Program-made: the position numbers and the translations under genes
Source: a virus
Virus record (IMG/VR): IMGVR_UViG_3300035698_003132
Span: 1-21,581 of that record
Strand: one strand, 5' to 3'
DNA length: 21,581 bases
The notes under the pieces: generated by a model
The model's database searches: none
What the model was told of the DNA's origin: nothing
The model's input: only the letters and a program-made list of their open reading frames with translations
In this document: piece by piece, positions 2,173-21,581 of the stretch
How positions within the stretch are numbered: the stretch's first letter is position 1
Layout: each line of letters begins with the position of its first letter

Positions 2173-2276
2173 TTTTTAGTCCTCTCTTGGTAGTTTTTTA
2201 CCTTTTGCTTTAGTTCTAGCCACTCTTTTCTTACTTTAGCAAGTTCTTCAGTTCTGTCTTTCTTCTTACTATTAAT
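2169..2276 (-). CDS. Possible small coiled-coil protein with a non-ATG start, 35 aa
   Basis: The frame between 2359 and 2169 is open and coding-like: NSKKKDRTEELAKVRKEW then LELKQKVKNYQERTKK, a highly charged helix. It ends in an ATGA overlap with the next gene. No ATG or GTG exists in the frame. The best start is an ATT at 2274-2276, six bases after AAAGGAG; a TTG at 2298-2300 is an alternative. ATT starts are rare, so the gene is uncertain. The frame is open further upstream, through the hairpin at 2300-2340, up to a TAA inside the preceding gene. Confidence 0.35.
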   Translation of the reverse strand: MNSKKKDRTEELAKVRKEWLELKQKVKNYQERTKK

Positions 2277-2299
2277 GTTATTCTCCTTTAATGTGAGCA

Positions 2300-2340
2300 A
2301 TACCCCCTCAGAGCTCCATATCTCAACTCTAAGGGGATAT
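2300..2340 (-). promoter_or_regulatory. Strong RNA hairpin in the minus-strand transcript
   Basis: Arms 2300-2313 and 2327-2340 pair over 14 positions with a 13-base loop. On the plus strand two positions are C/A mismatches, but on the minus-strand RNA the same positions become G-U pairs, so all 14 pair. That asymmetry supports function as RNA on the transcribed strand. No U tract follows, so it is not a simple terminator. It sits between the 126-aa gene and the possible 35-aa gene; RNA processing or translation control are options. Confidence 0.6.
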
Positions 2341-2358
2341 CTTTCATTGTTAGTGTTA

Positions 2359-2739
2359 CTAGACCAACTTAACCTTTATTGCTTCGCATTTACTCATTTT
2401 ATGTACATCTTTACCATCTGGTTCTAGTTTTTGTTCTGCTTCTGTTTTTAGCTTATAAGTATGGTGTCTGATTTCTTGTACCATATCCCAGACTACTCTA
2501 GCATCATTATTAAGCTTCTTACTACGTAAGCTAATCCTGTTAGGATTTTCATACATATGTAATATCAGAGTGTGTATAGCTCTATATTCTTTCTTGAATA
2601 TCTCTAGTCCTTCACCATAAGGAAATACATTTCTAAATGCAAAGTTCCATTGTCCTATTTGTAGTTTTAACAGAACATCTAATGCCATAAATAAAAGATT
2701 AAGTTGTTTATCATTTTGTAACTCTATAGTATGTTTCAT
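2359..2739 (-). CDS. Hypothetical protein, 126 aa
   Basis: A mainly helical protein. The N-terminal half has hydrophobic helices (LNLLFMALDVLLKLQIG), then FKKEYRAIHTLILHMYEN, then a basic C-terminus. TGAGGT lies before the ATG, and its ATG shares one base with the stop of the upstream membrane-protein gene (TAATG). No known motif. It lies downstream of the replication block in the same operon. Confidence 0.65.
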   Translation of the reverse strand: MKHTIELQNDKQLNLLFMALDVLLKLQIGQWNFAFRNVFPYGEGLEIFKKEYRAIHTLILHMYENPNRISLRSKKLNNDARVVWDMVQEIRHHTYKLKTEAEQKLEPDGKDVHKMSKCEAIKVKLV

Positions 2740-2936
2740 TATAACCTCAATATTTTCTTATAAAATGCTATATTAAAATTTAATATTAGTTTTACAGTAA
2801 ATCCAAATATATGTATAAATAGATCTAATTGTATTTTCTCTGTTATCGAAAACCCTATACAAAATATTCCACTGAGTACCTGAATAGCATACCCAGCTTT
2901 GCCTTCTTCGCTCAGATCATATAGATTAATAAACAC
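2739..2936 (-). CDS. Small membrane protein, 65 aa
   Basis: The protein starts with GTG, overlapping by one base the TAG stop of the Gp157-like gene. Two hydrophobic stretches at about residues 15-31 and 38-58 predict a two-span membrane protein, with a basic end (KKILRL). There is no other in-frame start before the first span. No ribosome site stands out, so translation is probably coupled to the upstream gene. Function unknown; small membrane proteins in phage early operons may alter the host envelope. Confidence 0.55.
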   Translation of the reverse strand: MFINLYDLSEEGKAGYAIQVLSGIFCIGFSITEKIQLDLFIHIFGFTVKLILNFNIAFYKKILRL

Positions 2937-3475
2937 TAAGATCTTCTTATTCTATCTAATTGTGGTACTAAGGCTCCCGTTATTTGTTCTCCCTGCTTTT
3001 GAGCAGCTATAGCATCTTTCTTTAGAGCATCTGTATCTACCATGTTTACCATGTCTACATATTTATACTTATCATGTATCTTTTCCTTGTCATAGACTAA
3101 TGATCCCCATCCAGTATACAATGTATACCGTGCTGACGATGTCTGTATCTTACCATCTTTACCAAGAGTCTTTATGATACTTGGTATTAGTACACCATTA
3201 AGATGCTTTTTCAACTTTTCTCTTGAGTTAACCTTTGTACTTATTCTCATGACTTCTTTTCGGTAAACATCTTTGATTGCTCTATATTTAGCTATTTCTG
3301 TGTCAATATGCATTCTGAAAGCATCTATGTTATCTACTTTCTCCATCATACTATTAAGTAATTCCTGTTGTTTTATTCCTAGCTCTTTAATCTTTTCAGC
3401 ATCATCCTCATCTACCATCTTCATGTCATCTTCTATATTTAGCCATTCATTAATTAGTTTCTGTGTTGTCTTCAT
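2936..3475 (-). CDS. Siphovirus Gp157-like protein
   Basis: A 179-residue protein with an N-terminal coiled coil followed by EIAKYRAIKDVYRKEVMRI, a central helix, then KIQTSSARYTLYTGWGSLVY and a C-terminal segment ending with GEQITGALVPQ. This order (helical N-terminus, a K-I-x-T-x-x-x-x-x-Y/F strand, a final G-x-x-I-x-G-A) matches the Gp157 family found in phage replication/recombination regions, where it is thought to act in DNA metabolism. The biochemical role of the family is not settled. It overlaps the upstream 84-aa gene by 26 bases. Confidence 0.7.
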   Translation of the reverse strand: MKTTQKLINEWLNIEDDMKMVDEDDAEKIKELGIKQQELLNSMMEKVDNIDAFRMHIDTEIAKYRAIKDVYRKEVMRISTKVNSREKLKKHLNGVLIPSIIKTLGKDGKIQTSSARYTLYTGWGSLVYDKEKIHDKYKYVDMVNMVDTDALKKDAIAAQKQGEQITGALVPQLDRIRRS

Positions 3476-3704
3476 ATTTCACTCCTATATCGTCTTCTTT
3501 TATTTGACATGCTTTTACATTTATTAATTCTTCTAGTGCCTGACTTGACACCAATTCTATATTTTCTTGCATTTCTTCATTCCATTCTTTAACAGAGCTT
3601 ATAGCCTCTGCTTCGGTATATGCTCTAAGTGTTGTTTGCCACTTCTGAGAAACATTCTCATTCCACGTTACTTGCCATAGTGGTTTCTTATTTTTATTAC
3701 TCAT
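3450..3704 (-). CDS. Hypothetical protein, 84 aa
   Basis: The start is set at the ATG at 3704 (MSNKNKKPLWQ), four bases after AAAGGAGA and overlapping the helicase stop as TAATG; a longer frame to 3740 lies inside the helicase gene and lacks its own site. The protein contains LWQVTWNENVSQKWQTT and TEAEAISSVKEWNEE, which looks like a small alpha/beta phage protein. No function can be assigned. Confidence 0.65.
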   Translation of the reverse strand: MSNKNKKPLWQVTWNENVSQKWQTTLRAYTEAEAISSVKEWNEEMQENIELVSSQALEELINVKACQIKEDDIGVKYEDNTETN

Positions 3705-5476
3705 TAGTTCTCCTTTAATAGTCTCCAACTTGGTGTCCATTTACATTTGAAATCAAATAGATCTCCATCAGAATTCTTAAACATTTCTACTACTCTGTCT
3801 GATGAATCTGCTTTACCCTTAATTCCAATTACCTTACGACTTGCATTTTCTATTGCGCCACTTCCTAATCCAGCATATAGGTCTAGTATTTCATTGCGAC
3901 TATATTGACGTGATACTTGAGAAATTTGTATAATAATAATATCCAGATTTACAGCTAAACTACTGAATTGATGAGATATGTTTCTAATTTGTGTATACTG
4001 ATCTTTAGCTCCCATGTCAACTAAATCTATATAGTCTACAACTACACAAGATGGATTAAGTTCTTTAATCTTATCTTTAATCTGTTGCATAGTTGGTGAT
4101 ATAGTTTGCATAGTTATATGACCAAGTTTATCTTTATTATTCTTATATATTTCTTTATACTGTTCTGATACTGTGTCTTTATCTACATCAGCAGCAATTT
4201 GAAGATTTCTCCTATGCATTACCCATCCACTTAATTCTAATGATAAGTAAAGTGTTGGTATTTGCCAATTCTTATGAATTCTACTAGTGCCCATATTGAG
4301 TCCCATAATAATATTTTGTGCTAGTGCGGTTTTATTACTGCCCGTATAACCAAATATTGTTACAAGTTCACCTGGATATATAGTGGCATCTATTGATGAG
4401 GGTAAATCAAATATCTTTTGTAGTTCTATTACTCTACCATCCCAACTTGTACTCATTCTTTCCTCCAATGCTTTTTGTAAGTCATCTGCATTATATGTGT
4501 CTATCAGATAGTCCTTACGTTTAAAGTGCATACAACGTGGATTACAATACCTTTTTAATAACCAATCATTACATCCGTATTTGTAATTTGAATTATATAC
4601 ATATTCAACTTTTTCAAGTACTAACGACTCGTCTAATGAATTATCATTCCAATGTAATAAAGCTGCTTTTGTTGCATCAGACGGAATACCACTGCGTCTA
4701 AAGTGAGAAGCTAGTCTTAATATAGCATTATTTCTAGTCCCTTCCTTGGCTCCATTATTATATAATGTTTGTACACATGGTACTATCGTTTTAGGTTCAA
4801 TTACATCTTGAAAGTTTCGTACAGTTGGCACTTCTTTAATTATTAAATGTTCTAACTCACCATCACCAAATTTCTCAGTAAATACAAAATCTAATCTTTG
4901 TCTTGTAGCTAGTTGTCTGATATCTGCTGGCTTTAAAGTATTAACTTCATGTAGAGATATCGGTATTTTATACAACCCACTCTTTTCACTTTTAGTATGA
5001 ATACACCTATATAAAGCTCCCCTTTTATATATTGCAAGGTCTAAATTAGAAGATAATTTCTTCATTGTCTCCTTTAAGATATATGGTAAGTCCTTTGAAT
5101 CACCAAATCCGAAACAGGCTCTATGTATATCTACATGGTAACCTGTTCCACTAAAATATATTTGGCAGTTATCTTCACTAATACCCTCGTCTTGCAATGT
5201 ATATAATACTGCATGAAGTTTCTTTAGTGTATAATCGTCTGAATTATCTCCTTTATCAATATCTATTGGTATAAAAGATAATCCTTGTGATCCAGCATAA
5301 CCTTTTATTGATTTAAACTTCTCTATGTGTACATTAAGGTCTTCTGGATAAGTGTAAACAGATCTAAAGACAGCGGTAGTTTGTCCATGTTGTTGAATAT
5401 ACTTAGGAAGTTCCTCTTCTTGAATAAATTTACCTCTTTGAGTAGGACTACCTATGGCTATCTCTAAATATTTCAT
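3704..5476 (-). CDS. Fused AEP primase and DnaB-type replicative helicase
   Basis: 590 residues with two enzymatic halves. The N-terminal half resembles archaeo-eukaryotic-type primase: IPIDIDKG with D72-x-D74 metal ligands, and FSGTGYHVDI (109-118) with the S-G-x-G-x-H nucleotide-binding motif. Next come a helical primase C-terminal-like part and a Cys cluster (C302, C311, C315), possibly a metal site. The C-terminal half is a RecA-fold DnaB-like helicase: Walker A GYTGSNKT (376-383), E414 in LSLEL, Walker B VVVDYID (478-484), and IIIQISQVSRQY after it. It would prime and unwind at the phage fork. It follows the SSB-like gene by two bases. Confidence 0.9.
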   Translation of the reverse strand: MKYLEIAIGSPTQRGKFIQEEELPKYIQQHGQTTAVFRSVYTYPEDLNVHIEKFKSIKGYAGSQGLSFIPIDIDKGDNSDDYTLKKLHAVLYTLQDEGISEDNCQIYFSGTGYHVDIHRACFGFGDSKDLPYILKETMKKLSSNLDLAIYKRGALYRCIHTKSEKSGLYKIPISLHEVNTLKPADIRQLATRQRLDFVFTEKFGDGELEHLIIKEVPTVRNFQDVIEPKTIVPCVQTLYNNGAKEGTRNNAILRLASHFRRSGIPSDATKAALLHWNDNSLDESLVLEKVEYVYNSNYKYGCNDWLLKRYCNPRCMHFKRKDYLIDTYNADDLQKALEERMSTSWDGRVIELQKIFDLPSSIDATIYPGELVTIFGYTGSNKTALAQNIIMGLNMGTSRIHKNWQIPTLYLSLELSGWVMHRRNLQIAADVDKDTVSEQYKEIYKNNKDKLGHITMQTISPTMQQIKDKIKELNPSCVVVDYIDLVDMGAKDQYTQIRNISHQFSSLAVNLDIIIIQISQVSRQYSRNEILDLYAGLGSGAIENASRKVIGIKGKADSSDRVVEMFKNSDGDLFDFKCKWTPSWRLLKEN

Positions 5477-5478
5477 AA

Positions 5479-6066
5479 CTAAAATCCTGCGTTATATGTT
5501 TTATCGTTAGTTACGATTCCACTATCTACAATTATCTTTTGATCATCATCGTTTTCATTGTATTCTACAAGATATTTATTTCTCTGCATAAATTTAATAT
5601 ATCCAGTAATATCCTGCATACCTTGAGATGTATTAGGTACAAGCATTGGATAAGCATTAGAATATACCTTACCATCTTTCTTACTCTTTTGTTTATAAAT
5701 ATAAGTTATATATGGAAATTTAGTTATATCTATATATTTACCAAGATATTGTTCTATATCTTCTACAAGCTTATCGTTCTTATCTACCCACATACCCTTA
5801 ATATTGACTCCTCCTTGTTCTCCAATACCATCAAATACACGATAGATTCTTTTTAAGAAAGAATTCTCTTTAATGTTACCATTTTCATCCCAATCAAATG
5901 ATCCAAATATAGAGCATTTCTTAGGGTATTCTGATCCTTCTACCTTTAATATTAAATCTAATGCTATATCAACAGCGTCTACGTTCTTGTTTTGAACATC
6001 CTGAATTGCTACAGCCTTAAATCCCGTGAAACTACCTCCACTACTTTTTGGTGGTCTTACTGGCAT
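5479..6066 (-). CDS. Possible single-strand DNA-binding protein
   Basis: A 195-residue protein between the Sak4-like ATPase and the primase-helicase, with zero gap to the former and two bases to the latter. It has a disordered Gly/Ser/Pro N-terminus, a strand-rich middle (ALDLILKVEG, KKCSIFGSFDWDENGN) and an acidic segment near the end (YNENDDDQ). Position and composition fit the SSB or DUF669-like partner usually found next to Sak4 ATPases. I do not see a diagnostic OB-fold motif, so this is inference from context. The ATG has GGAGGCG upstream within the previous gene's end. Confidence 0.5.
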   Translation of the reverse strand: MPVRPPKSSGGSFTGFKAVAIQDVQNKNVDAVDIALDLILKVEGSEYPKKCSIFGSFDWDENGNIKENSFLKRIYRVFDGIGEQGGVNIKGMWVDKNDKLVEDIEQYLGKYIDITKFPYITYIYKQKSKKDGKVYSNAYPMLVPNTSQGMQDITGYIKFMQRNKYLVEYNENDDDQKIIVDSGIVTNDKTYNAGF

Positions 6067-6945
6067 TTACGCCTCCTTTTTCTTATATGTTTTTAATTCT
6101 TCTACAACTGCATTATAATCAAATGGTAATCTCTTTTGTCGCAATGGTTCAAGTCTACTTCCTACCGCTCTTTCATCATAAGATAAAAATGATACATAAT
6201 ATTTACCATCAGTTTTAGATGCAGTTGTATAACCAATAACATCAGCTTTACCAGTTAACAATCCTGCTAATCCCTTTGGTAAATCTGGTGCAAGTTGAAC
6301 TTTGCCATCTTGTACTGAAGAAGGTTTGCTATGAGATGTCATTATTAAGTCTGATCCCGCTTTTCTTAATACATCTTGTAATGCTTCTACTCCTCTAGCT
6401 ACTCTATTCTTAGCTTTATTCCATCCAGCTCCCCACTCTGCATCTGCGATATTATCAATTTTTAATTCTTTTACTACACTAGCTTCTACCCATTCATTTA
6501 CCTTGTCAATAGTATCAATAGCTACTGCATCATAAGGTAATGTATTCCACTCATTTCTGAGCCATGATAGCACTTCATAAAATGCGAATACAGGCATTGG
6601 TTTACCTTTGTCTTTACCAGACCGATAGTAATAACCTCTTTCTTCTGGTGGTATTGGTTCAAATACTTGTTGTTTCTTACCTTCTTCTGTTACAAATACA
6701 GGCTTACCATTCTCAAGCATTTCTCTTGTTGGTTGTTCTAAACAGACTACTGGTATAATATTAGCTCCATCTACAAAGTCTGCTCCAAGATCAGTATCTA
6801 TTAAAATAACCTTCTTAGAACCTTCTTTATGCCACTTAGAAGCTTGTGTAGTTTTACCAGTCTTAGGTGAACCAATAAAGTACCATGTTAATCCACCTGG
6901 CATTTGAGTCCAATCGTTTTTAATCTTTCTTACTAGTATATTCAA
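6067..6945 (-). CDS. Sak4-like RecA-fold ATPase
   Basis: 292 residues with Walker A GSPKTGKT (25-32), an aspartate strand VILIDTD (46-52) and Walker B YDAVAIDTIDKV with D144. DLIMTSHSKP forms a sensor-like strand. This is the AAA_24/Sak4 pattern of phage recombination mediators, which support single-strand annealing or replication with an SSB partner. The start codon is TTG, with GGAGG five bases upstream; there is no in-frame ATG close by. It leads the replication block and has its own promoter-like sequence at 6967-6994. Confidence 0.85.
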   Translation of the reverse strand: MNILVRKIKNDWTQMPGGLTWYFIGSPKTGKTTQASKWHKEGSKKVILIDTDLGADFVDGANIIPVVCLEQPTREMLENGKPVFVTEEGKKQQVFEPIPPEERGYYYRSGKDKGKPMPVFAFYEVLSWLRNEWNTLPYDAVAIDTIDKVNEWVEASVVKELKIDNIADAEWGAGWNKAKNRVARGVEALQDVLRKAGSDLIMTSHSKPSSVQDGKVQLAPDLPKGLAGLLTGKADVIGYTTASKTDGKYYVSFLSYDERAVGSRLEPLRQKRLPFDYNAVVEELKTYKKKEA

Positions 6946-7690: not shown

Positions 7691-7972
7691 TTAGTTTTTC
7701 ATTGCAATATCAAGGTAATATACCAGAAAACTTCTTAGTTTTATACGTTTAGTCTTTAACATTTTTTCTGCCACTTCAATTTTTCTTGAAGGTTGCATTT
7801 TAGTATTGAGTATTAATCCTATATCTTTGAGTATTTGTGATACATCTTCTTTGGCTATTCCACAAGATGCAAAAGGATCTTTATTAGAGTGGTCAAATTT
7901 TAACTGTGCTGCGTTTTCTTTTGTTGGCACTATACTTCTCTTTGCTGAACGTTTTGGTGTATTAGGCTTCAT
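7691..7972 (-). CDS. Unknown protein at the end of the Ubl cassette, 93 aa
   Basis: The gene overlaps the E1-like gene by 11 bases and has AAGGAG before its ATG, so it is translated with the cassette. The N-terminus is basic and probably disordered (KPNTPKRSAKRS), followed by a helical segment, GIAKEDVSQILKDIGLILN, and a basic helix, KTKRIKLRSFLVYYLDIA. I do not recognise it. It might be an adaptor, a target or an unrelated early protein; there is no RING-like Cys/His pattern. Confidence 0.65.
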   Translation of the reverse strand: MKPNTPKRSAKRSIVPTKENAAQLKFDHSNKDPFASCGIAKEDVSQILKDIGLILNTKMQPSRKIEVAEKMLKTKRIKLRSFLVYYLDIAMKN

Positions 7973-8702
7973 TATTCTTCTCCTTAATTGGTGGAATTAT
8001 ATATTCTTTAGTTTCTGAACTTGTGGGATTGAAACAATGCCATTCATATAAAAAATATGGATGTCCCATTAATACCAAGAATAGTTGTTTTACTACATGA
8101 CCAGCTGCTAATGCAGAACAGAATATAGTATGTTTCATTGTACATACTGCATCTTCTATTGAGCTACTTGATATCCAATAGTTCATATAATTATCATCAT
8201 ATTTGGTAGTTGTTATTAATTGGGTAGTGAGACTATCCATTCTAACATCTATAAGTAACTCTTTATTTGGTAATCTGCTCCATTCATTGTATACTGTTTT
8301 TCTGCTTCCCATATCATCTGTGCATACTATTGTTATTGGTGTTAGTTCACAGCCTTCTATAAACCTTTCTGGATGTTGTACTCTTCTTACATTAGAATTA
8401 TATCTATGTATTTGATTAGCTGCTGCCGTTACCTTTTGGTTTCCAAGCTCTTCCTCTGGATATTTTGTACTACTTAAATTATGAAGTTCAAGTTTATCGT
8501 TATCCCATAAATGTATCTCTTCAAAACCCATTATAGTTAATTGTGCTATTATTTCACTACCTATAGCACCCAATCCTATTACAGTTATTCTTTTTAATCT
8601 ACTCTGATCTATCAAGTCTTTATTGCGATGAAATCTCTCAGAAAGTATTCTTTCACTTCCACCTGTTGTTCTCATTGTTTCAACTAAATCATTATGTCTC
8701 AT
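7962..8702 (-). CDS. ThiF/E1-like ubiquitin-activating enzyme
   Basis: 246 residues with the E1/ThiF Rossmann signature: VIGLGAIGSE (G43-x-G45-x2-G48), acidic strand LWDND (D67, D69), N75 in LHNL, and K90 in QKVTAA, then IVCTDD and LLIDVRMD. It would adenylate the C-terminus of the Ubl at 11032-11268. Cys187 and Cys195 (DAVCTMK, TIFCSALAAGH) are candidates for the thioester cysteine. The usual N-L-x-R-Q box reads N-L-S-S-T, so the Arg and Gln are missing. The single-domain length is that of bacterial ThiF-type E1s rather than eukaryotic E1s. Stop and start are 11 bases from the JAB gene. Confidence 0.9.
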   Translation of the reverse strand: MRHNDLVETMRTTGGSERILSERFHRNKDLIDQSRLKRITVIGLGAIGSEIIAQLTIMGFEEIHLWDNDKLELHNLSSTKYPEEELGNQKVTAAANQIHRYNSNVRRVQHPERFIEGCELTPITIVCTDDMGSRKTVYNEWSRLPNKELLIDVRMDSLTTQLITTTKYDDNYMNYWISSSSIEDAVCTMKHTIFCSALAAGHVVKQLFLVLMGHPYFLYEWHCFNPTSSETKEYIIPPIKEKNNEA

Positions 8703-8713
8703 TTTGTTTCTCC

Positions 8714-9664
8714 CTAAAAATATAAGAATTCATTTTGATTAATATCATTTTCAAGACAAAATTCACGAAGTTCATCCCAATTTACAAATCCATCTTCGAT
8801 ATTTTCCTTTATTACTAATATTTTACGTTTTATGATATTAGTATATTCTGTACCACCTATGCCATCAAAGAAAAACATTTTATTAGAATTCTTATCTAAT
8901 TCTATATGATTATAAAAAATTTTATCGAGATCTCTAATAAAGTAATTTCCATTTGTATGATGATAAAAATATGATTTGTATGTTGTTATCAATGATTTAT
9001 CATCTTTATCCTCTTCATCTGGTTTATAATTATATCCATATCCATAATTATAATCATAACCGTCTGATCCATAACTATAATCATAACCATCTGAAAACAT
9101 ATCTTTAGCAGTTTTCTTTTTAGCGCTTTCTGCTATCTCTCTTACTTTCATAACTTCAATTTCTTCTAACCAATCGTTAGGTACATCTTCATCTACTTTA
9201 TCTTCCAGTATATCTTTTACATCATATTTACCAACGAAACCATACTGATCCTTATAACTTATAGCAAAACTTCTGTTAGAACCGCTATTACTACTTACTA
9301 TCAGGCTAAAGAAGAATCCTTTATCTGGTGCATGTTCTTTCAGTGTATTATTATCTTCAGCAGAGAAGAAACATGACATCGTATTATGACTATGAATAAG
9401 ACCTTGTGAACATGCTTTAAAGTCTATATCCTTTCTATCAAAGAACTTCATTTGTGCTTTAGCTAAGTCTTTTGCAAACCACTCTGTTTCAGTATGTGAG
9501 CCTACATCTAATACATTAAAATAGCTAAGCTCTACATCTTCTGGGAATCCTAACTCATCTGTTTTTAGAATAGTATAGTAAGCTACACCAGACCATTCTT
9601 TATCACATCTATGTAACCACCACTCTATCTTCTTAGAGTAATCTTTCGGAATTAATAATTTCAT
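8714..9664 (-). CDS. JAB/JAMM-type deubiquitinase-like metalloprotease
   Basis: 316 residues. The N-terminal domain (about 1-150) carries the complete JAMM zinc site: E23 in KEWSGVA, H91-S-H93 in GLIHSHNT, S101 and D104 in SAED, giving H-S-H-x7-S-x2-D. FFFSLIVSS follows, as in other JAB proteases. The family removes Ubl proteins from targets or matures Ubl precursors. Residues 191-213 are a Tyr/Gly/Asp-rich repeat, and 224-316 form an extra domain I do not recognise (YFYHHTNGNYFIRDLDKIF onward). It overlaps the E2-like gene by 32 bases, which implies coupled translation. Confidence 0.92.
   Translation of the reverse strand: MKLLIPKDYSKKIEWWLHRCDKEWSGVAYYTILKTDELGFPEDVELSYFNVLDVGSHTETEWFAKDLAKAQMKFFDRKDIDFKACSQGLIHSHNTMSCFFSAEDNNTLKEHAPDKGFFFSLIVSSNSGSNRSFAISYKDQYGFVGKYDVKDILEDKVDEDVPNDWLEEIEVMKVREIAESAKKKTAKDMFSDGYDYSYGSDGYDYNYGYGYNYKPDEEDKDDKSLITTYKSYFYHHTNGNYFIRDLDKIFYNHIELDKNSNKMFFFDGIGGTEYTNIIKRKILVIKENIEDGFVNWDELREFCLENDINQNEFLYF
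9041..9094. repeat. 27-bp tandem repeat inside the JAB gene
   Basis: Two adjacent 27-base units (9041-9067 and 9068-9094) differ at only two positions. They encode SDGYDYSYG and SDGYDYNYG, part of a Tyr/Gly-rich linker that continues as YGYNY. The repeat length is a multiple of three, so copy number can change without breaking the frame. Confidence 0.85.
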
Positions 9665-10976
9665 TTTTCTTTCCCTTCATTCTTCTTATTTTGTTTAAAA
9701 ATTCATTTAAAATAAAGTTCTGAGCAAGTTGTTCAAATTTAACAAGTATATCTGCTGTTTCACGAAATGTAAACAATGATTTCATTTGATTAACTATTCC
9801 ATTGAAAAAATCTTTAAGTGTTAAAATTAACAAGTCTATTTTTTCATGATCATATACTACTGTTGTTTCATTATTGAAATTAAGTTCATCCTGATTAAAG
9901 TTAAATGAACCATAAGATGTTCTTTTATAGTTAAGATATACGAAATCCTCTGGCTTTAACAAATATGTTAATACATATAAAAGTTCATTAAAATTAATTT
10001 TACCATTTAATCTTAACTTTTCATAATAATTAAACATTTCATTATCCATAAAATTTTCATACCTAAGAATATATTGTTCTATAAAGTCTTGTTTCTTTTT
10101 GTTTAAACTAAATATTTGTTCATACCTAGTATAATCATATATAAAAGCTTTTATACATTTAGCCATCTGTTCAAATCTTATTTGATTAATGACTTCTTTA
10201 GAGAAGTAATCTCTATATAAACGACCTCTAAATGCTGTTAATGCATTCTCTTGAACCATGAAATATCTAATCTCACTAAACTCAATATCTTTTAAGGTTA
10301 AAGCTTTTATTTGTGGTGTAAAACTATACTTGTTTATAAATTCAAGTCTTCTAGTTTTAACTTTTTCTATATTCCAATATACATCATCTTCAGTATAATT
10401 AAATAAAAACTCTCTAGTTTGATTAAGCATTAACAGATAATTCTTATTAAGCATATGATTAGTTATTCTACCAATGAAATCACCTAAGCATGGCCTTCCT
10501 TCGAGTGAAACATGAGGATGAAGATAATGAGTTAAATCAAGATTATTATAAATTAAATTTTCCTCAATTTCACTACTCTCATCTTCATCTTCGTCTTGAT
10601 TAAACATAGTTTCATCCATAGATATTAATGCTTCTGGAAAATTTATACCTTCTAAGCTAACTCCATCTACTATATAAATACAATAACCATCTTTAAGGGT
10701 TATTATAGCTATCTCTCTAAGTATATCTATGGCTTCATTTCTATTTATTTCAAACCAACCTATAACAGACTTAATAATCTTTGTATACCTCATATCATCT
10801 AGTAATGTTTGATTTATAGTTGGGAACATCTTTCTAAATGCATCATGTAGATTTATCATCTCTTCTGCATCCAGCTGTTCATCTATATTTATAAAGCTAT
10901 AGTATTTATTAAGAGCTTTCTTCTCTGTAACACTCAGGATATACCTTGCTTTTTTCCTTAGTAATCTTGGTATCAT
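9633..10976 (-). CDS. E2-like ubiquitin-conjugating protein with large extensions
   Basis: 447 residues. The segment 150-166 reads THYLHPHVSLEGRPCLGD: H153-P154-H155 then G160 and C163-L164. Canonical E2 enzymes have H-P-N-x4-G-x2-C-L with the catalytic Cys ten residues after the His; here the spacing is identical and only Asn is replaced by His. The preceding strand (YCIYIVDGV) and the following helix (LLMLNQTREFLFNYTEDD) fit the E2 fold. An acidic run at about 127-139 interrupts the domain. Residues 210-447 are long and helical, with no recognised domain. TAAGGAGGT precedes the ATG. Neighbours Ubl, JAB and E1 make an Ubl-transfer role likely. Confidence 0.8.
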   Translation of the reverse strand: MIPRLLRKKARYILSVTEKKALNKYYSFINIDEQLDAEEMINLHDAFRKMFPTINQTLLDDMRYTKIIKSVIGWFEINRNEAIDILREIAIITLKDGYCIYIVDGVSLEGINFPEALISMDETMFNQDEDEDESSEIEENLIYNNLDLTHYLHPHVSLEGRPCLGDFIGRITNHMLNKNYLLMLNQTREFLFNYTEDDVYWNIEKVKTRRLEFINKYSFTPQIKALTLKDIEFSEIRYFMVQENALTAFRGRLYRDYFSKEVINQIRFEQMAKCIKAFIYDYTRYEQIFSLNKKKQDFIEQYILRYENFMDNEMFNYYEKLRLNGKINFNELLYVLTYLLKPEDFVYLNYKRTSYGSFNFNQDELNFNNETTVVYDHEKIDLLILTLKDFFNGIVNQMKSLFTFRETADILVKFEQLAQNFILNEFLNKIRRMKGKKNEIINSERLL

Positions 10977-11031: not shown

Positions 11032-11268
11032 TTATGCTCTTCCAGATTTTGAATTAATCTTTGCTACAGTGATCAGATCACGATCTTTTACTTTATCAGT
11101 AAGTTCACAAGGTTCTCCATTAAGAAATACCTTTTGATTGTCTAATGCTACACCTTGTTCCTGTAATACATCTGCTATGTCTGGAGCATTGGCTTCACAA
11201 AACTTTGCTAATACTAATGCACCACCATTACTAGCTACTGACAACCTTACTGTTAAATTTTTACTCAT
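11032..11268 (-). CDS. Ubiquitin-like beta-grasp modifier
   Basis: 78 residues, close to ubiquitin's 76. The layout fits a beta-grasp fold: strands near 4-11, a helix at about 28-39 (APDIADVLQEQG), then QKVFLNGEPCELTDKV and RDLITVAKI, recalling ThiS/MoaD and small bacterial Ubls (a V-x-L-N-G-E strand, an acidic turn D-x-D-L-I-T-V). It ends G76-R77-A78 rather than in a Gly-Gly; removal of two residues would expose Gly76. AGGGAGGACGT lies before the ATG. Directly followed by a terminator and the E2, JAB and E1 genes. Fold recognised by pattern, not by search. Confidence 0.75.
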   Translation of the reverse strand: MSKNLTVRLSVASNGGALVLAKFCEANAPDIADVLQEQGVALDNQKVFLNGEPCELTDKVKDRDLITVAKINSKSGRA

Positions 11269-17881: not shown

Positions 17882-18131
17882 ACTTACATGGGAAGAAGCT
17901 GAAGACTTCCTTGGATTCTTAGTTAGAAGTGGCTATGCTATTGATATAAACATGGATAGAACACCAGATAACGTAGAATACATAATGGCTATACATGATC
18001 TAGACGGTGGCATACTTGCGTCTGCTAATGTTGAATATGATATTGATATATCAACTCTGGTAATAAGATGTTTAGATGACTATTTAACTACACAAGATGG
18101 TAAAACAATGGAACTTATATGGCAACAATAG
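17865..18131 (+). CDS. Hypothetical protein between the terminase genes, 88 aa
   Basis: Starts with TTG, seven bases after GGGGAG, overlapping the previous gene's end; an ATG nine bases later is too far from the site to be preferred. The sequence reads WEEAEDFLGFLVRSGYAIDI, then MAIHDLDGGILASANVEY, a small alpha/beta fold. It overlaps the terminase start by 13 bases. Family unknown. Confidence 0.6.
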   Translation: MSKMTKLTWEEAEDFLGFLVRSGYAIDINMDRTPDNVEYIMAIHDLDGGILASANVEYDIDISTLVIRCLDDYLTTQDGKTMELIWQQ

Positions 18132-19618
18132 ACCAGAAAGCTGTTCTAAGATCAAAGCTTAAATCTAATATGGGTGTATTTGGTAAGGTATGCTTACCAA
18201 CAGCATATAAGAAAGATACACCACCGTTCCATAATGAAATATACAAGAAGATAGGCGATGAATCAGAGAAGAGAGTATTGATAGCAGCTCCTCGCGGAAC
18301 AGCTAAGAGTACCATTGTAAGTCTGATTCTGCCTATGTATCAGATTATGAATAAGAAGCCTAGTGAAGATTTGTTCATTGTCATCATATCAGAATCACGT
18401 CCTCAGAGTATTAACTTCTTATCTAGGATAAAAGACCATTTGGAAGATTCAGAACCTATACGAGATATATATGGGGACTTTGGTGAGAGAACTGCACATA
18501 AGTGGAGAGAGGATGACATAGTTCTGAAGAATGGAGCAAGAGTAGTTGCTATTGGTACTGGCTCTAGAATTCGTGGATATATCACAAAGGATACTAGACC
18601 CACTCTGATAATCATGGACGACATAGAGTCTGAAACTAATGCTCTGACCAGAGAAGCTAGGGCTAAGAATAAGAAGTGGGTTACCCAGGCAGTTCTTCCT
18701 TCGCTGTCTGATGACGGCAGAGCAATAATGATTGGTACAGTTATATCTGAAGACTGTTTTTTATACTGGGCTAAGAATAGCACGGTGTGGACTGTGTTGT
18801 GGTTCAGTATTCTTGATGAAGAAGGTAATACAATTTGGGAAAGTAAGTTTCCAATGGAGAGGATCAAGCGAATAAAGCGTGACTTCGAGGAGGTTGGAGA
18901 CATAAATGGGTTCTTCCAGGAGTATATGAATGAGGCTCAATCACCTGACAGTGCTCCTTTTAGACCAGAGTTCATACACTTACATCACTATGATTTGCTG
19001 AAAGATGCAGAAGGAGAATGGTATCTCAGTTCTAGTGTAGTTGGAAGAGAAGATGGTGAGATAACAAAGATACCAGTAGACTTGTATCAGGGAGTAGATC
19101 CTGCGTCATCTCTTGCAACTACTGCTGATTACTTTGTGGTAATAACTTTAGCAGTTGATGCTGAAGAGAATATTTATATTGTCGATGCAGTACATAGGAA
19201 GATACAACCATCATTACAACCAAGGCTTCTAATAGACAAGTTTAAACAGTTCAGACCTAAAAAGATGAAGATAGAGACGGTTGCTTACCAGGAGGCTCTT
19301 AGGGACAGCACTAGGGCTATTATGAGGGAAGAGAAGCTATACATACCAGGACTAGAGAAGGGTGTGAAGCCAAGAAACTCTAAGAGCGAGAGGTTATTGA
19401 GTCTGGTGCCTAGATTAGCTAGGAAGAAGTTTTTCTTTAGAAGTGAGGACATAGATATTCAAAGAGAATTCTTATCATACCCAAAAGGTAAGAACGATGA
19501 CTACATGGATGCAATCTGGACTGCTATGCAGGGCATGATACCATGTAGAAGAAAGGAAGTTAATTCTTTTGAGAAGAAGAAGATCATAAAAAAAATGTAC
19601 GATTGGATGACATTATGA
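18119..19618 (+). CDS. Terminase large subunit
   Basis: 499 residues with an N-terminal ATPase and C-terminal nuclease. Walker A is APRGTAKS (57-64), Walker B LIIMDDIE (163-170), and IGTVIS (205-210) resembles the coupling motif. The nuclease has D327 in QGVDPASS, E386 in KIETVAY and D461/D464 in KNDDYMDA, the typical RNase H-like metal residues. It packages DNA into the procapsid at the portal. The start overlaps the upstream gene by 13 bases and has only a weak ribosome site. The portal gene follows after 57 bases that contain a promoter. Confidence 0.93.
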   Translation: MATIDQKAVLRSKLKSNMGVFGKVCLPTAYKKDTPPFHNEIYKKIGDESEKRVLIAAPRGTAKSTIVSLILPMYQIMNKKPSEDLFIVIISESRPQSINFLSRIKDHLEDSEPIRDIYGDFGERTAHKWREDDIVLKNGARVVAIGTGSRIRGYITKDTRPTLIIMDDIESETNALTREARAKNKKWVTQAVLPSLSDDGRAIMIGTVISEDCFLYWAKNSTVWTVLWFSILDEEGNTIWESKFPMERIKRIKRDFEEVGDINGFFQEYMNEAQSPDSAPFRPEFIHLHHYDLLKDAEGEWYLSSSVVGREDGEITKIPVDLYQGVDPASSLATTADYFVVITLAVDAEENIYIVDAVHRKIQPSLQPRLLIDKFKQFRPKKMKIETVAYQEALRDSTRAIMREEKLYIPGLEKGVKPRNSKSERLLSLVPRLARKKFFFRSEDIDIQREFLSYPKGKNDDYMDAIWTAMQGMIPCRRKEVNSFEKKKIIKKMYDWMTL

Positions 19619-19675: not shown

Positions 19676-21581
19676 ATGGATCAAAATGAAGTAATGGAAC
19701 TGGTAAAAGAGACTCAAGAGCTGTTTGATGATTATAAGGATAACAGTGGTAGAAGTACATGGGAAGGTCATGTACAAGAAGATAGTGAGTTCCGTTATGG
19801 CAAACAATGGACTGATGAACAAGAGACAGAGTTACAGCGTAGAGGGCAGTCAGCTATTGTTGTTAATAGGATTCACCCAGCAGTAGAGACAGCTAAGGCT
19901 ATGCTTACAAGTAGGAAGCCAGGCTTTAAGTCATCCGCTAGAGAAGACAGTGATAACAAGGTTGCGAAGGTTATGGATTCTCTGTTTGAATATATATGGG
20001 ACATCTCTGATGGCAATACACAGTTTAGGCAGATAGTAGACGATTACTACGTTAAGAGCTTAGGATGGTCTTTAGTATTCCAGGATTCTCTTGCTGATAA
20101 CGGTAAGGGAGAAGTTAAATGGATTTCACTAGATCCCCTAGATGTTTATGTTGATCCTAGCAGCAGAAATAGATTCTTTGATGATGCAGAGAATATAATA
20201 TACTCTAGGCTTTATACTAGAGACCAAGCTAGAAAATACAAACCACTTTATGAAGATGTACTTAAAAACGCTACTGGTGAATCATGGACTGAAAGACCTG
20301 TTACAAATAGAGTTGATAGTGGAGACGTACAATTCCCAGAGAGTCTTGATATTATGGATCAGACTGGTGATGAATACATTAGAGGCTATGAAAGATATCA
20401 GATGGTGTTTAAGTCGCTATACAGAGTATTTGATCAGAGCAGTGCTAAAGAAGAGTTACTTACACAAGAAGAGTTTATTGAGTTCCTTAAAATACCAGCA
20501 TGGATAGTAGCTGGACAAATATATCGTGATCAGAAGATGGTCATGCAAGTAGTCCAAATGTTTATGCAGAAGACTGGTCAGCCTCCACAGGTACAGGAAG
20601 TTAGCAATCAGTTCTTGGTACAACAGGGAATAATCAAAGTAGTAAATATAAAGAGTAAAAATGTTAGAGTTATATCCGTCATGGGAGATAGTTTGCTATA
20701 TGTAAGGGATTTGCCAAAAAACCTCCATACGTATCCAATCATACCATTCCCAAACTTGTATACTGGGACACCATTCCCAACCTCTGATGTAAGGATGGCA
20801 AAAGGGTTACAGCAATACATAAACAAACTCAGATCGCTAATCATTGCTCATGCTGCAACCTCTACAAACGTTAAGGTTCTCCTTCCTAAAGGAAGTGTAG
20901 ACATAGAAGAATTTGAACGTAACTGGGCTAGACCTGGTGTTGGTATTGAGGTAGATTATGACCTAGGGGAACCAAAACCAGTCGCTCCCACACCTTTGCC
21001 AAATGAATTATATCATAACGAGCAGACAGCTAAGAATGACATTAACCATCAATTTGGTATCTATGAAATGATGATGGGCGACACAGCCAATGCTCCTGAC
21101 ACTTACAAGGCAACTATCTCTCTTGATGAATATGGACAAAGAAAGATTAGAAGTAAGCTCGCAGACTTAGAAGCAAGTCTCAAAAGAATGGCTGAGGTAA
21201 TGATCCCGTTTATACAGCAGCTTTATACACAAGAAAAGATTATCAGACTAGTACAACCTAATAACAATGTAAATGAATACACCGTTAATAAGAGACTTGT
21301 TGATGATAAGACTAATGAAATAAAAGTAATGAATGATATTACTGTTGGGAATTACGATGTTAAGGTGGTGACTGGTTCTACGTTACCTAGCAATAGATAT
21401 GCAGAACTTGAATTACATATGGCAGCGTATGAGAAAGGATTGATTGATAGACAGGAAGTCCTGAAGAAAACCGACATTTATGATATTGAGGGTGTTTTAC
21501 AGAGAACTGATTATATTGCGCAGCTTGAACAACAACTACAAGGTGCTGGCGAGAAGATCAAACAACTTGAAGGCGATTTAC
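19676..21581 (+). CDS. P22-like portal protein, truncated at the window end
   Basis: The frame is open from ATG 19676 to the end (635 codons) with no stop. PFPNLYTGTPFPTSDVRMAK, and KGLQQYINKLRSLIIAHAAT with the preceding YVRDLPKNLHTYPI, are typical of P22-type portals, and ISLDPLDVYVDPSSRN near residue 156-171 matches the conserved W-x-x-x-x-P-x-x-V-x-x-D-P block. The C-terminal part becomes a coiled coil (AQLEQQLQGAGEKIKQL). The portal is the ring through which DNA is packaged by the terminase encoded just upstream. AGAGGTATCCT lies before the ATG. Confidence 0.88.
   Translation, partial: MDQNEVMELVKETQELFDDYKDNSGRSTWEGHVQEDSEFRYGKQWTDEQETELQRRGQSAIVVNRIHPAVETAKAMLTSRKPGFKSSAREDSDNKVAKVMDSLFEYIWDISDGNTQFRQIVDDYYVKSLGWSLVFQDSLADNGKGEVKWISLDPLDVYVDPSSRNRFFDDAENIIYSRLYTRDQARKYKPLYEDVLKNATGESWTERPVTNRVDSGDVQFPESLDIMDQTGDEYIRGYERYQMVFKSLYRVFDQSSAKEELLTQEEFIEFLKIPAWIVAGQIYRDQKMVMQVVQMFMQKTGQPPQVQEVSNQFLVQQGIIKVVNIKSKNVRVISVMGDSLLYVRDLPKNLHTYPIIPFPNLYTGTPFPTSDVRMAKGLQQYINKLRSLIIAHAATSTNVKVLLPKGSVDIEEFERNWARPGVGIEVDYDLGEPKPVAPTPLPNELYHNEQTAKNDINHQFGIYEMMMGDTANAPDTYKATISLDEYGQRKIRSKLADLEASLKRMAEVMIPFIQQLYTQEKIIRLVQPNNNVNEYTVNKRLVDDKTNEIKVMNDITVGNYDVKVVTGSTLPSNRYAELELHMAAYEKGLIDRQEVLKKTDIYDIEGVLQRTDYIAQLEQQLQGAGEKIKQLEGDL

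Follow-up and report, generated by a model that had tools for sequence, protein, structure and literature searches.

The window analysed here spans an entire virus record (IMG/VR record IMGVR_UViG_3300035698_003132, 21,581 bases), which comes with no host genome. Its minus strand encodes, together and in this order, a ubiquitin-like (Ubl) modifier, an E2-like protein, a JAB-type peptidase and a ThiF-like E1. The features of this cassette and of the adjacent genes are as follows.

11032-11268, minus strand: ubiquitin-like modifier, 78 aa, ending SKSG-RA (Gly76 and a two-residue tail); ORF, alignment and profile matches
9633-10976, minus strand: E2-like protein, 447 aa; ORF, family HMM built without the window protein (E=3.4e-18) and homologue model (pLDDT 87)
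10488-10520, minus strand: E2-like active-site segment HPHVSLEGRPC (His153, Pro154, His155, Cys163); translation and alignment
8714-9664, minus strand: JAB/JAMM-type peptidase, 316 aa; Prok-JAB match at 0.0011, short of Pfam's cut-off
9353-9394, minus strand: JAMM motif H-S-H-x7-S-x2-D (His91-Asp104) of the JAB protein; sequence and alignment A9
7962-8702, minus strand: ThiF/E1-like activating enzyme, 246 aa, with Cys187 in CTMKHT; Pfam ThiF match at 1.1e-16
3704-6945, minus strand: replication/recombination block beside the cassette; PHROG/Pfam matches
6945-6067, minus strand: Sak4-like gene; PHROG/Pfam
6066-5479, minus strand: unannotated 195-aa ORF
5476-3704, minus strand: primase-helicase; PHROG/Pfam

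Translation of 10976-9633 on the minus strand places the active-site segment in the context ...THY-LHPHVSLEGRPCLGDF..., with His153 encoded by 10520-10518 and Cys163 by 10490-10488. Leu and Gly follow directly after the cysteine. The E2-like ORF thus contains the pattern H-P-H-V-x3-G-x2-C-L with Cys163 ten residues past His153, as the first-pass annotation of this DNA had described. The same annotation put the protein at about three times the size of an ordinary E2, which is correct (447 aa compared with approximately 150 aa). The predicted layout is an N-terminal E2-like domain (roughly residues 1-220) followed by a helical C-terminal extension. In a protein of the same composition, approximately 2e-6 occurrences of HPx5Gx2CL would be expected by chance. 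The E2-like and JAB genes share 32 bp (9633-9664), and overlapping starts are also found in several related loci; the overlap may reflect translational coupling.

As a direct query, the E2-like protein retrieved no homologue from phage, plasmid or IMG/VR collections. The neighbouring ThiF-like E1, when used as the query, has hundreds of IMG/VR relatives (214 in one search, 385 in another), and E2-like homologues were collected beside these by iterative HMM searches. We aligned 66 deduplicated, non-truncated IMG/VR representatives. Loss of the His and Cys in homologues had been named beforehand as grounds for abandoning an E2 assignment; instead, His153, His155 and Cys163 are conserved in 100% of the representatives, as is Gly165, with Pro154 conserved in 98%. 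HPH is present in the window protein and in 65 of the 66 representatives, the single exception reading HSH (locus L024), and none of the 66 has HPN. Eight sequences lack the motif, all of them fragments that begin at a contig end. The invariance of the motif in 66 non-truncated homologues argues that it is not a chance occurrence. Given that candidates were gathered via the E1 gene and with an HMM that contains the motif, members lacking it could in principle have been missed. The ten-residue spacing, correct for the window protein, does not extend to a family rule: the distance from His to Cys is mostly 10 or 9 residues and once 11. Further columns with more than 60% conservation among the 66 representatives lie mostly after the Cys, in the region of F190, L191, W194, W201 and N204.

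An HMM made without the window protein and its nearest relative, L002, recovered the window protein with E=3.4e-18. With the motif masked, the same HMM still gave E=1.8e-5, the best of 200 shuffles being 1 or worse. Among loci with sufficient upstream sequence, an E2 match was absent only from L073 and from the three crAss-like loci then at hand. No Pfam, NCBIfam, PHROG or PADLOC family identifies the window protein as an E2; UQ_con and Prok-E2 matched neither the window protein nor any of 39 homologues, and an hmmsearch of PDB sequences with the E2-like family profile gave no E2 match. One scan of genome contigs that used the E1 alignment as a profile returned no relative, and we therefore claim no prophage or bacterial copy.

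Wherever it was found, the E2-like gene is accompanied by genes for the Ubl, JAB and E1 proteins. A small ORF ending in SG lies upstream of all 82 distinct E2 genes whose upstream sequence extends for 320 nt or more (82/82), most of the tails being 0-3 residues long. The modifier encoded in the window is a single domain. Ser75 and Gly76 are >90% conserved in the Ubl alignment (A8), and a PDB search with the profile of the Ubl family retrieved ThiS (3.6e-5) and SAMP2 (1.2e-4). In the JAB family, Glu23, His91, His93, Ser101 and Asp104 are invariant in 20 homologues. Past its peptidase domain, the JAB protein (8714-9664) contains a low-complexity stretch rich in Tyr, Gly and Asp, GYDYSYGSDGYDYNYGYGYNY. 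Cys187 is invariant across the E1 family and is probably the catalytic cysteine; C[TS]M[KR][HQ]T or CSYKQT is present in 107 of 115 distinct E1s. The E1 family profile retrieves NEDD8 E1 first (5.7e-9), and SUMO and ubiquitin E1s rank above MoeB and ThiF.

Given that the Ubl profile is nearest to ThiS and SAMP2 and that the E1 is ThiF-like, the cassette might be a sulfur-carrier or small-molecule pathway in the style of ThiS/MoaD or CysO/Mec+, in which the E2-like protein would be an accessory and no protein would be conjugated. We consider this quite improbable. The Ubl ends in SG and a tail for JAB trimming, not in a bare GG; NEDD8, SUMO and ubiquitin E1s precede ThiF and MoeB in the E1 profile search; and metabolic genes are absent from the cluster. 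To our knowledge, the known systems of this type require no E2-like Cys protein. No E3 was identified, which we count against a conjugation cassette.

We used hhalign to compare the phage family (alignment A6) with six eukaryotic E2s (A7, whose UBE2W row was checked as identical to PDB 2mt6). The alignment has a probability of 71.5 and a P value of 3.6e-5; it places HPH opposite HPN, brings the cysteines into register and also matches the Trp at Cys+8. Its score of 38.8 compares with a maximum of 21.7 among 200 column shuffles. When HPN, Cys and Leu were masked, the score fell from 38.8 to 15.6. The sequence link to E2s thus rests on the active-site segment, and the sequence evidence for E2 kinship beyond the motif is weak. 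In comparisons with single E2s, UBE2W scored highest (38.5), but this lead vanished once its third motif residue was set to Asn (30.9, level with 29.9 for UBE2A and 29.7 for UBE2D2). A special kinship with UBE2W is therefore unsupported beyond the HPH residue.

AlphaFold2 modelled the full window protein, using 39 poorly aligned homologues, with a mean pLDDT of only 49.5. For the first 301 residues of homologue L118, with a better alignment, it gave a model with a pLDDT of 87.1 and a pTM of 0.84. This model has helices at residues 2-18 and 25-36 and strands at 41-51, 54-66, 81-86 and 94-97, followed by a helical insert, HPH at 140-142, Cys150 and helices from residue 152. The order alpha1, beta1-4, HPH loop, Cys, helix is the order of elements in E2s, whose UBC fold consists of alpha1, a four-stranded beta meander, the active-site loop and alpha2. 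With the L118 model as query, Foldseek ranked the TSG101 UEV domain first (E=0.34), and no E-value was below 0.001. In BFVD, the Foldseek matches were all to viral proteins without a name, at E-values near 1e-3. VIA-align, applied to the 1000 best Foldseek candidates for the L118 model, gave its best Z, 5.5, to UBE2W (2mt6), with TSG101 UEV at up to 5.4 and UbcA1 (3we5, which also has HPH) at 5.1; values below 8 are weak by the tool's own note, and the argument rests on the uniformity of the list, whose top 50 rows are mostly E2, UEV, RWD or UFC1. The poor model of the window protein yielded only helical matches and no E2, which indicates that a list filled with E2s is not the default output of the procedure. 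From this roughly 20% identical homologue, we infer an E2-like fold for the window protein.

UEV and RWD domains have no catalytic Cys. The first rank of TSG101 UEV in Foldseek and its large share of the VIA-align list are what a catalytically inactive, UEV-like Ubl-binding scaffold might produce, but Cys163 and both His residues are invariant over very divergent homologues, and we regard an inactive scaffold as highly improbable.

A different interpretation is that the HxH...C cluster binds metal or forms some other enzyme site, in a protein that is not an E2, the resemblance being a short convergent motif. The profile similarity to E2s does stem from the motif, and the structural scores are modest. 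The motif tolerates loss of the Pro (proteins of L024 and of crAss-like and Flavobacterium phages read HSH), both His residues and the Cys being kept, a pattern that metal sites also show. Nevertheless, such a site seems unlikely to us: the E2-like element order and the VIA-align matches of the L118 model span the whole N-terminal domain, the gene never occurs apart from its Ubl, JAB and E1 neighbours, and HPH is a functional E2 motif in UBE2W (PMC3778709).

The cassette, with its motifs intact and conserved, is co-located with replication genes. In 89 of 93 loci, a primase-helicase gene is found no more than 4 kb downstream of the E1 gene; a Sak4-like gene follows a short way downstream in 73 of 109. 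Directly past the E1 gene of the window, a 93-aa ORF (7691-7972, minus strand) has no match in Pfam, NCBIfam, PHROGs or PADLOC, and L002 has a close copy of it after its own E1 gene (5731-6012). On the plus strand, the window encodes a terminase large subunit (PHROG 38) at 18119-19618, whose relatives in known phages are all <60% identical. After the terminase, a 635-aa ORF without annotation (19676-21580, plus strand) runs off the end of the window.

Taken together, we consider it likely, with a probability of roughly 0.77, that the 447-aa protein serves as the E2-like transferase in an apparently complete Ubl conjugation cassette, encoded by the phage and comprising Ubl, E2, JAB and E1. The E2-like identity proposed in the first-pass annotation is largely supported, given the E2-like fold predicted for a homologue, the conserved His and Cys, and the presence of Ubl, JAB and E1. 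What has to be given up is its claim that HPH is a novel natural variant of the E2 active site, because this motif already characterises UBE2W and its family (PMC4630614, PMC3778709; PDB 2mt6).

We infer that conjugation would begin with the JAB peptidase trimming the Ubl tail, exposing Gly76. The ThiF-like E1 would then adenylate the Ubl and load it on a cysteine, probably Cys187, from which it would move to Cys163 of the E2. His155, at the position of the E2 Asn, may stabilise the transition state in the way suggested for UBE2W, and an amine of the target would finally accept the Ubl. JAB may also reverse the modification. UBE2W ubiquitylates protein N-termini. Because of the conserved position of the cassette beside the Sak4 and primase-helicase genes, it is conceivable, although in our view doubtful, that in an uncultivated group of phages Ubl conjugation with UBE2W-like HPH chemistry, possibly favouring N-termini, is directed at host proteins or at the phage's own replication/recombination proteins while DNA is being replicated. 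The arrangement suggests that Ubl conjugation may be a standard part of the replication gene blocks of some phages, beyond its place in bacterial defence.

We found no published description of the phage cassette in the open-access papers searched; papers elsewhere are possible. The bacterial Bil system (BilA Ubl, BilB E2, BilC JAB, BilD E1) shares the four kinds of component with the phage cassette, and there, too, JAB trims the Ubl tail (PMC11354881). Bil serves bacterial defence, whereas the phage cassette is carried by phages, and BilA has two Ubl domains where the phage modifier has one. In BilB, the histidines come after the Cys, in a CEHH motif (PMC11354881), in contrast to the His-Pro-His before the Cys in the phage protein. 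The alignment of 66 representatives contains no conserved Glu or His after Cys163, and we rejected a BilB-type E2 for this reason.

Operon type 6d of Iyer et al. 2006 we take to be PRTRC / Prok-E2_D; this assignment was rejected for the phage protein, as PF14460 had no match at E<=1 in the window genome or in 39 aligned family members. The gene set of operon type 6d (Ubl, E2-like, JAB and E1) is the same as that of the phage cassette, but its E2 has no upstream His and one downstream (PMC1779556), whereas the phage protein has the upstream His. Bacterial E2-like domains that agree with eukaryotic E2s in their His and Cys were also described by Iyer et al. (PMC1779556), so that a prokaryotic E2 with an upstream His is not a novelty in itself.

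ThiF loci of crAss-like (Steigviridae) and Flavobacterium phages, for example crAss001 gp76-gp79, encode relatives of the E1 (E approximately 1e-14) with an adjoining JAB protein. Proteins at the E2 position in these loci read HSH[VIL]...C.G, with a longer HxH-to-Cys spacing than in the phage family described here. They are annotated only as hypothetical, never as E2, and the family HMM does not match them; their kinship is thus only a lead. The three crAss-like loci additionally have a Ubl-like protein with a KSG or similar start. Across the loci L015 (crAss001, 2244-5500), L016, L017 and L200, the crAss-like phages have the HSH protein, JAB, E1 and a Ubl-like protein, and Flavobacterium phage Fpv1 has the first three of these. 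In crAss001 gp79, a Ubl-like part ending in KIKSG is followed by an extension.

HPH in E2s is already known, including in one human enzyme, UBE2W, where it replaces HPN as the signature of the family (PMC4630614). UBE2W in PDB 2mt6 reads HPHVYSNGHICL, with HPH, and has the same H-P-H-V-x3-G-x2-C-L segment with ten-residue spacing as the phage protein; UbcA1 also has HPH and the Cys at this spacing (PMC4630614). Both stand at or near the head of the catalytic E2s that the structural comparison of the L118 model lists. The UBE2W His has been proposed to act as an oxyanion stabiliser when protonated, and the enzyme is largely inactive above pH 8 (PMC3778709; see also PMC11649903). UBE2W and UbcA1 are ubiquitin-specific proteins of approximately 150 aa, compared with 447 aa for the phage protein, and, unlike them, the phage protein has a helical C-terminal extension and its homologues a long insert ahead of HPH. 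We rejected membership of the UBE2W family: the phage protein has HPH, but beyond that residue it is no closer to UBE2W than to UBE2A or UBE2D2. In our best reading, the phage E2 has an active site of the UBE2W type, either retained or reached by convergence. Among bacterial E2s of such a kind, BilB is the best described, and its catalytic histidines are placed unlike those of eukaryotic E2s. The large phage family has the eukaryote-style His-Pro-x...Cys layout, and its UBE2W-type second His is fixed in all members found, making this family a natural test of what that His does.
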